The notes beneath the pieces are model-generated. The model searched no databases, was not told where the DNA came from, and saw only the letters and a program-made list of their open reading frames with translations. DNA of 17,327 nt from Actinomycetales bacterium (lineage in GTDB: Bacteria > Actinomycetota > Actinomycetes > Actinomycetales > Cellulomonadaceae). The stretch lies in contig JAATES010000028.1 of NCBI GenBank assembly GCA_015655615.1, positions 1 to 17,327 on the forward strand, in the 5' to 3' direction. This document shows, one piece after another, positions 1 through 9,057 of this stretch. Both the position numbers and the translations under genes were made by a program. Numbering within the stretch: position 1 is the first letter of the stretch; the number at the start of each line of letters is the position of its first letter.

Positions 1-279
1 ACCCAGATCGAGGTCACGCGCAACGACGGCCAGGGCCCGCTGGGACACCACGGCGGCCCGCATGCGCGCCAGATCGCCCTCGGGCAGATCGGGATGGCGC
101 CGATAGAGCGCCTCTGTCACCGAGAGCCCCAGCACCGTGTCCCCCAGGAACTCCAGCCGCTCGTTGGTGGGGAGGCCCCCTGCCTCGTGCGCGAACGAGC
201 GGTGGGTCAGCGACAGCACAAGAAGCTCGGGGTCGATGTCGACCCCGAGCTTCTCGAGAAGTTCCGTCGCCGGTGACAC
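1..279 (-). CDS. rnc: Ribonuclease III, N-terminal part (cut by window edge)
   Basis: This is the N-terminal part of ribonuclease III, the double-strand-specific endonuclease that matures rRNA and cleaves structured mRNAs. The visible protein carries the family signature [18 protein letters not shown], with the catalytic Glu and Asp of helix alpha-3, preceded by [14 protein letters not shown] and followed by [18 protein letters not shown]. The C-terminal half, including the dsRNA-binding domain, lies beyond base 1. I place the start at GTG 279, giving [20 protein letters not shown], which fits the usual family N-terminus. An in-frame GTG at 327 would add 16 basic residues; it lies inside a hairpin and has no better ribosome binding site, but I cannot exclude it. 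The gene follows rpmF in the same direction, as in other Actinomycetota. Its early codons form a long perfect inverted repeat, listed separately. Confidence 0.95.
219..256 (-). promoter_or_regulatory. Long inverted repeat in the 5' coding region of rnc
   Basis: Bases 221-236 (AGAAGCTCGGGGTCGA) and 239-254 (TCGACCCCGAGCTTCT) are perfect 16-base reverse complements separated by two bases. In the rnc transcript the stem can extend by a G-U and a C-G pair to 219/256, about 17-18 pairs with a tiny loop. It spans codons for roughly [16 protein letters not shown] near-complete dsRNA hairpin is the preferred substrate of RNase III itself, so an autoregulatory cleavage site is a reasonable inference. 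The pairing is read directly; the function is inferred. Confidence 0.6.
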
Positions 280-324
280 AGTCCGGGCTACGCGCTTGCC
301 CGAGACGGAACGGCTACGGTGGGA

Positions 325-350
325 CACGCCTGGGTCAGAACTCAGGCGTG
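325..350 (-). promoter_or_regulatory. Hairpin across the rpmF stop codon, rpmF-rnc junction
   Basis: CACGCCTG (325-332) and CAGGCGTG (343-350) are perfect 8-base arms around a 10-base loop. The structure includes the rpmF stop codon at 342-344 and reaches the alternative rnc GTG at 327. There is no T-run after it in the minus direction, so it is unlikely to be a simple intrinsic terminator. A processing or attenuation hairpin between rpmF and rnc is more likely. Confidence 0.45.
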
Positions 351-533
351 CTCGCTACGTAGCGCCTCGGCGTACTGGCGACCGTTGTAGGTGCCACACG
401 TCGGGCACGCGATGTGCGTCAGCTTGGGTGACTTGCACTGCGGGCAGGTGGCGAGGCTCGCGGCAGTCGTCTTCCACTGCGAACGGCGCGCACGGGTGTT
501 GCTGCGCGACATCTTGCGCTTCGGAACAGCCAC
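342..533 (-). CDS. rpmF: 50S ribosomal protein bL32, zinc-ribbon form
   Basis: The 63-residue product begins (M)[19 protein letters not shown], the diagnostic bL32 N-terminus, and carries a zinc ribbon made of CPQC (residues 30-33) and CPTC (43-46). It is a component of the large ribosomal subunit near the peptidyl transferase region. The start is GTG 533, two bases after the TAG of the DUF177 gene, with a purine-rich GAAAGAGAG stretch upstream, so translation is probably coupled. The length is normal for the cysteine-containing (C+) type. The rpmF-rnc order is conserved in Actinomycetota. A hairpin overlaps its stop codon. Confidence 0.97.
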
Positions 534-9025: not shown

Positions 9026-9057
9026 GAGCCCGTGTGAGTCTGAACTCACACGGGCTC
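9026..9057 (+). terminator. Hairpin terminator of rpmB
   Basis: A perfect 14-bp stem, GAGCCCGTGTGAGT (9026-9039) and ACTCACACGGGCTC (9044-9057), closes a CTGA loop 18 bases after the rpmB stop. No T-run follows, which is common for actinobacterial terminators. It is the strongest hairpin in any intergenic region of the window. Confidence 0.8.

Follow-up and report, generated by a model that had tools for sequence, protein, structure and literature searches.

A conserved mRNA hairpin inside the coding sequence of actinobacterial rnc, most likely a target of RNase III itself

The DNA analysed here, in the following called the window, is a stretch of 17,327 nucleotides from an Actinomycetales bacterium (Cellulomonadaceae; contig JAATES010000028.1). 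At its beginning, three genes are found on the minus strand in a likely operon: a yceD-type gene (PF02620; 536 to 1123), then rpmF for ribosomal protein L32 (342 to 536) and, directly after it, rnc (1 to 327), which runs off the window's end at base 1. The product of rnc is RNase III, the enzyme that cuts double-stranded RNA. An inverted repeat lies inside rnc, on the same strand and with yceD and rpmF upstream. A second, longer copy of rnc is located at the end of contig C96 of the same assembly (G000). The two copies differ at 6 positions in their overlap of 288 bases (window 1 to 288), none of them in the stem, which is identical in both. Since rnc is present on two contigs with 6 differences per 288 bases, the source assembly seems to mix strains, and the longer rnc on C96 would stem from another strain.

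The repeat is perfect over 16 bp. Its arms, 221-236 and 239-254, are 100% complementary and are separated by a centre of 2 nt (237-238), exactly as the initial annotation had it. On the mRNA strand, i.e., the minus strand, the stem gains two more pairs, G-U (255:220) and C-G (256:219); this extension had been proposed too, and the pairs are there. Fold and sequence together place the mRNA hairpin at 219 to 256. It is the longest perfect repeat in the 17,327 bases, if centres of 10 nt or less are considered. The longest arm in 60 dinucleotide shuffles of the window measured 8-13 nt and none of them had an arm of 14 bp, which sustains the former view that such a repeat is very unlikely to arise by chance. 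The 17-pair helix is kept when 301 nt are folded (100-400, minus strand; z -4.05, 100 shuffles), and an 81-nt fold of the plus strand around the repeat yields z -4.49. What is encoded here is a stable helix within the rnc coding sequence.

How early in the frame it lies depends on the start codon. The initial annotation had spoken of the first dozen or so codons. Counted from the GTG at 279-277, the conserved helix (255-220) corresponds to codons 9-20 and the wording fits; counted from the longest frame, with its GTG at 327, it corresponds to codons 25-36 and the wording does not. A start-type codon occupies the position of 279-277 in 12 of 12 Arthrobacter-type genes (11 times ATG or GTG, once TTG). 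In what follows, codons are counted backwards from the T in the motif THRS. The element that is conserved in codon register, as described by a covariance model, extends over codons -18 to -3 (214 to 261, minus strand). Its stem reads codon against codon: -16 faces -5, -15 faces -6, -14 faces -7, -13 faces -8 and -12 faces -9, continuing into -11/-10.

Loci for comparison were chosen as those best matching the window's protein; for the families f6 and f19, but not for f1, the set was subsequently completed by place. The window's own family, f1, is presumably the Cellulomonas/Promicromonospora family; rnc was found in 200 of its genomes, and 115 distinct sequences make up the sample. The stem type of f6 is that of named Arthrobacter and Glutamicibacter records, that of f7 is the one of Brevibacterium oceani, the f19 stem resembles those of Microbacterium and Leifsonia, and f21 is probably Streptomycetaceae. 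The anchor motif missed L213, L217, L218, L226, L242, L243, L406, L417 and L537, which were left out, as was L190 from the f1 covariation alignment (A1). There was no usable locus in G736, G710 (f19) and G856 (f7). Some genomes entered twice under two loci (G117 in f6, G131 and G076 in f7, probably G073 in f19, and some of f1); a few sequences are, in consequence, counted twice in the f6 and f19 shuffle counts, the f1 helix-length count and the rpmF-linkage counts given below.

The hairpin is no peculiarity of the window. A near-perfect hairpin recurs at this single place in 105 of 115 f1 sequences, in 59 of 59 of f6 and in 30 of 30 of f7, and 85 of 117 f1 sequences have a nearly uninterrupted helix of 17 bp. 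A scan from 800 nt upstream of THRS (where present; 30 of the f6 loci reach less than 550 nt upstream) to 580 nt downstream of it found no other recurrent near-perfect hairpin in f1, f6 or f7. The helix is, moreover, conserved as RNA in the relatives, with compensatory changes that preserve pairing in f1 and in the Arthrobacter-type (f6) and Brevibacterium-type (f7) families. In A1 (74 distinct 48-mers of f1), 94.7% of the cells pair, and there are 30 double changes vs 6.8 in shuffles; the covariation score is 0.123 vs 0.066 shuffled, is reached by 0 of 500 shuffles and lies above every slid control. The same holds for 50 sequences of f6 and f7 (A2), with a score of 0.234 vs 0.129, again 0 of 500 and again above every slid control. 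The alignment of the completed f6 set (A4), whose 58 rows include the window, pairs in 96.8% of the cells and shows 77 double changes vs 22; it scores 0.265 vs 0.125 (0 of 500), the slid controls staying at 0.078 or less. For some tallies of pairs or of pair types, a number of shuffles do equal the observed value: 22 of 500 for A1, 32 and 6 of 500 for A2 and 25 of 500 for A4.

The nature of these changes is easily read from the codons. The third base of the Gly codon at -13 tracks the first base of codon -8: GGG, GGC, GGT and GGA go with Pro, Ala, Thr and Ser, respectively. Codons -15 and -6 switch jointly, as AAG-CTT, CGT-ACG, AGT-ACT, CAT-ATG, CAG-CTG or GAG-CTC. On a tree of 89 sequences from f6 and f7, this Gly pair changed at least 26 times on its left side and at least 15 times on its right. 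The third base of Gly and the first base of its partner codon pair in 82 of the 89, vs 39.5 (sd 10, maximum 68) under independent evolution, and 0 of 300 simulations reach the observed number. Five of the six pairs are singly indecisive in the tree-aware simulation, in which 19 to 43 of 300 runs reach the observed value.

Codon choice tells the same story. At codon -6, Leu is CTT in 104 of 111 f1 sequences vs 39 of 2954 Leu codons in the rest of rnc. The corresponding figures are 108/113 vs 561/2672 for GGG among Gly codons at -13, 105/114 vs 366/782 for CCC among Pro codons at -8, and 112/113 vs 1523/2954 for CTC among Leu codons at -14. When synonymous codons are shuffled within the gene (300 times) and a stretch of 63 nt is folded, the f1 sequences reach a median z of -3.41, with z < -2 in 101 of 115. 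For the window's own stretch, 0 of 300 shuffles fold as well; its z is -3.6 with the truncated gene of the window and -4.7 with the longer copy on C96. Values of z < -2 are also obtained for 57 of 60 f6, 29 of 30 f7 and 36 of 36 f21 sequences. Along the whole of rnc (10 genes per family, 40 shuffles), the segments that stand out begin at codons -25 to -13 in f1 (mean z -2.9 to -4.1) and at codons -25 to -17 in f6 and f7 (mean z -4.0 to -4.7). For all other segments of rnc in these three families, mean z ranges from +0.8 to -1.9; the bottom of this range comes from overlap with the hairpin, and away from it the means stay between +0.8 and -1.4. The hairpin holds the lowest z of the gene in 8 of 10 f1, 10 of 10 f6, 10 of 10 f7, 4 of 10 f21 and 5 of 10 f19 genes. 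That amino acids and RNA fold are under joint constraint, as had been claimed, is thus strongly supported by codon choice, synonymous shuffles and covariation; pairing at synonymous sites in relatives, the check suggested at the time, proved to be conserved.

The probable Streptomycetaceae (f21) deserve a separate comment. Their hairpin sits at the same place and is bulged, in another register and with other letters in the arms. The score of 31 sequences is 0.080 vs 0.057 shuffled (0 of 500); the covariation is weak, because double changes number just 7, fewer than the 9 of one slid control. The scan for near-perfect hairpins misses the bulged hairpin in f21; the sole place it reports there is near +345, in 6 of 36. 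A second stretch of f21 genes (L066, L068, L070) also beats the synonymous shuffles, with mean z of -2.1 and -2.6, around a NERLEFLGD motif; the segments concerned start about 7-11 codons after THRS and make a candidate second structured site.

Which molecule is selected can be judged from the imperfect pairs. On the mRNA strand, G-U outnumbers A-C by 33:14 in A1 and by 46:7 in A2, other mismatches amounting to 49 and 5 cells; the selected object is, therefore, the mRNA. A covariance model built from f6 and f7 only finds the window's element with 54.4 bits (E roughly 1.6e-14), vs 32.8 bits on the plus strand. In 97 loci of other families, the same model gives E < 0.001, irrespective of place, in L131, L246, L142, L128, L051 and L049, some of these matches being on both strands. 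Searched against Rfam, the window has no match at or above the gathering score of the family concerned. In 100-450, six Rfam lines appear at E up to 10, all below the gathering score and none with an rnc name. One of them, Scr3202 (218-315, minus strand), is full-length and was taken as chance, having 20.6 bits vs a gathering score of 52.

The element is not a dispersed repeat either. A 101-base query in its own genome matches rnc only, on the two contigs, and a 30-mer of the element occurs once in 119 of the 200 f1 genomes, twice in G000 and in none of the other 80; the reversed control of the 30-mer pattern has 0 matches in the 200. The bare 24-letter pattern CTCGGGRTCN6GAYCCCGAG gives at least 117 matches in named genomes. 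Among the matches listed, 80 were classified, 37 loci (L327-L363) being outside these; 41 are at this place in rnc and 39 elsewhere or unrecognised, which implies that the bare pattern is not specific.

The hairpin is far from universal. Many families lack it at z < -2, e.g., f3 (0 of 5), f13 (0 of 6), f22 (0 of 6), f91 (0 of 5) and f93 (0 of 7), and it is patchy in f19 (15 of 58). Within f1, nine rnc genes do not score as having a hairpin (z -1.26 to 1.75). These are L025, L032, L095, L096 and L174-L178, of genera g13 and g25; in all of them no rpmF was found upstream, YceD being present, and some, e.g., L025, still show traces of the stem. Among the f1 sequences that do have rpmF (107), z lies below -1.5 in 104; two were unscored and are probably near-duplicates, and in the last, L166 (z -1.1), the stem can still be made out. 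When the RNase III proteins are placed in a tree, the nine fall into two clades (support 0.997 and 0.968), and two changes are required, if the outgroups are counted as hairpin-bearing. The hairpin was, hence, lost twice in f1, alongside the absence of rpmF. Outside f1, f6, f7 and f21, a hairpin at z < -2 is absent from 24 of 25 sequences without rpmF and from 72 of 96 with it. Altogether, 78 of 299 sequences have rpmF upstream and no hairpin at z < -2; the linkage alone thus fails to explain the hairpin. By these counts, which are uncorrected for kinship, rpmF linkage looks nearly necessary and not sufficient.

Bacteria that control RNase III via its own mRNA are well known; the papers cited in this and the following paragraphs by PMC number are quoted from excerpts. 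For AbsB, the RNase III of S. coelicolor, the original account of autoregulation is reportedly that of Xu et al. 2008. In this species RNase III cuts two stem-loops of the transcript, of which one belongs to the rnc cistron and the other lies upstream, and a point mutant of rnc has an increased transcript level and half-life (PMC10126417, excerpt). Its operon comprises a hypothetical protein, L32 and rnc, and an antisense RNA to rnc has been described (PMC5775266, in part). The window resembles this in its three-gene order ending with L32 and rnc and in a stem-loop in the rnc cistron. Both cuts in S. coelicolor, however, are in loop regions (PMC10126417, as excerpted), whereas the evidence here is of conservation and covariation; the hairpin of the probable Streptomycetaceae (f21) further differs from the window's in letters, register and bulge. 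All 36 f21 sequences fold below z -2 at the place of the window's hairpin, a comparison confined to folding within these genes. In S. aureus, RNase III cuts a stem-loop in its own coding sequence, at U+296, and thereby feeds back on itself (PMC3386247, in part). Like the predicted target here, it lies within the rnc coding sequence, yet it is a long irregular helix conserved among Staphylococci (same excerpt), while the present one is near-perfect and precedes THRS. In E. coli, RNase III cuts the leader of its own mRNA (rncO) and lowers its level (PMC3386247, same part). That stem-loop is non-coding and 5' terminal; the window's hairpin is not in a 5' leader but inside the rnc frame.

We conclude that the early coding sequence of rnc forms an mRNA hairpin of 16-18 bp, which is maintained by selection as RNA. 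Most likely, it serves as an RNase III target for feedback, as may be presumed from the known type of substrate and from self-cleavage within the coding sequence in S. aureus and S. coelicolor. RNase III would bind and cut the hairpin in its own mRNA. When the enzyme is abundant, the yceD-rpmF-rnc transcript would lose its rnc function, i.e., a negative feedback would result. Cleavage downstream of rpmF could, at the same time, allow a single transcript to yield much L32 and little RNase III. Such a separation of rpmF from rnc expression, less sure than cutting and feedback, is suggested by the rnc genes that lack both rpmF and the hairpin; in particular, none of the nine rpmF-less rnc genes of f1 scores one, which hints at an uncoupling of rnc from L32. 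Taken as a whole, a selected rnc hairpin that is an RNase III target, mediates feedback and separates L32 from RNase III appears to us quite probable. In S. venezuelae lacking RNase J, reads pile up in rnc, and the authors suggest an internal cut by RNase III (PMC12096830, excerpt). Stems of mRNA stem-loops have, on the other hand, been thought too short for RNase III (PMC5775266, in part), which counts against cutting. Where the nuclease domain begins, residues vary as Pro, Ala, Thr or Ser and as pairs of Lys-Leu, Arg-Thr, Ser-Thr, His-Met or Gln-Leu. One may go further and speculate that an old RNA switch has shaped these residues of RNase III in several actinobacterial families, so as to preserve an mRNA that can be cut, exists for the sake of much L32 and little RNase III and is lost once rpmF leaves the operon; this we consider possible, if somewhat doubtful.

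Other explanations have to be weighed against a feedback target of RNase III. The selected RNA could mainly separate rpmF from rnc, as a barrier, a processing point or a protection of the rpmF 3' end, instead of sensing RNase III. The rpmF-less genes favour this idea: 0 of 9 in f1 score a hairpin (z above -1.5), in two clades, and 24 of 25 in the other families lack it. But so do 72 of 96 genes with rpmF in those families, and the published hairpins in rnc coding sequences are feedback sites. Both roles can coexist; separation as the main function is unlikely, yet worth keeping in mind. Less likely still is that RNase III does not read the hairpin at all and that early translation is slowed or blocked, another RNase cuts or an antisense RNA is in control. 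The hairpin is early in the frame, slowing of elongation by such a structure was suggested (PMC3386247, excerpt), and S. coelicolor has its antisense RNA to rnc (PMC5775266, in part). A near-uninterrupted helix, however, exceeds the need of a pause element, and an antisense RNA does not require self-complementarity.

Could the repeat have nothing to do with RNA? As a palindrome in DNA, i.e., a regulator binding site or a cruciform, it would have the advantage of perfect dyad symmetry and of a near-invariant sequence within f1, where the 30-mer is exact in 120 of 200 genomes. Between families, however, the arms differ in letters and remain complementary, and the excess of G-U over A-C on the mRNA strand speaks for RNA; these two observations render the DNA palindrome very improbable. 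Finally, the hairpin might be a by-product of a conserved protein motif (LGV..DPELL) combined with the codon bias of a high-GC genome. Of course, part of the complementarity comes free, because the amino acids themselves read codon against codon (E-L, G-P, V-D). Yet shuffles that preserve protein and codon pool fail to reproduce the hairpin, and stem codons such as CTT are rare in the rest of rnc. By the synonymous-codon shuffles, a protein by-product is refuted for f1, f6, f7 and f21, and its chance is practically negligible.

We found no description of this hairpin in the titles and opening lines of abstracts of the open-licence papers searched, nor in the excerpted parts of PMC10126417, PMC2936110, PMC4681348, PMC12096830, PMC3386247, PMC5775266 and PMC7509114; this is a weak indication, Xu et al. 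2008 lying outside that literature. Self-control of RNase III within its coding sequence is already known; a conserved, codon-registered hairpin that shapes amino acids, and its tie to rpmF, look new. Here, the same DNA is used doubly, for protein code and RNA structure, and unusually clearly so, with amino-acid changes tracking base pairing. Exact mutants that are synonymous only are on offer, by which feedback of RNase III can be tested in actinobacteria; the element can be found with a covariance model, and the tie between the hairpin and the order of rpmF and rnc is testable.

Elsewhere in the window, a further perfect inverted repeat, of 14 bp with a loop of 4 nt, lies at 9026-9057, directly 3' of a short frame on the plus strand. 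This frame reads like ribosomal protein L28 (rpmB), and the repeat is probably the terminator of the L28-like frame.
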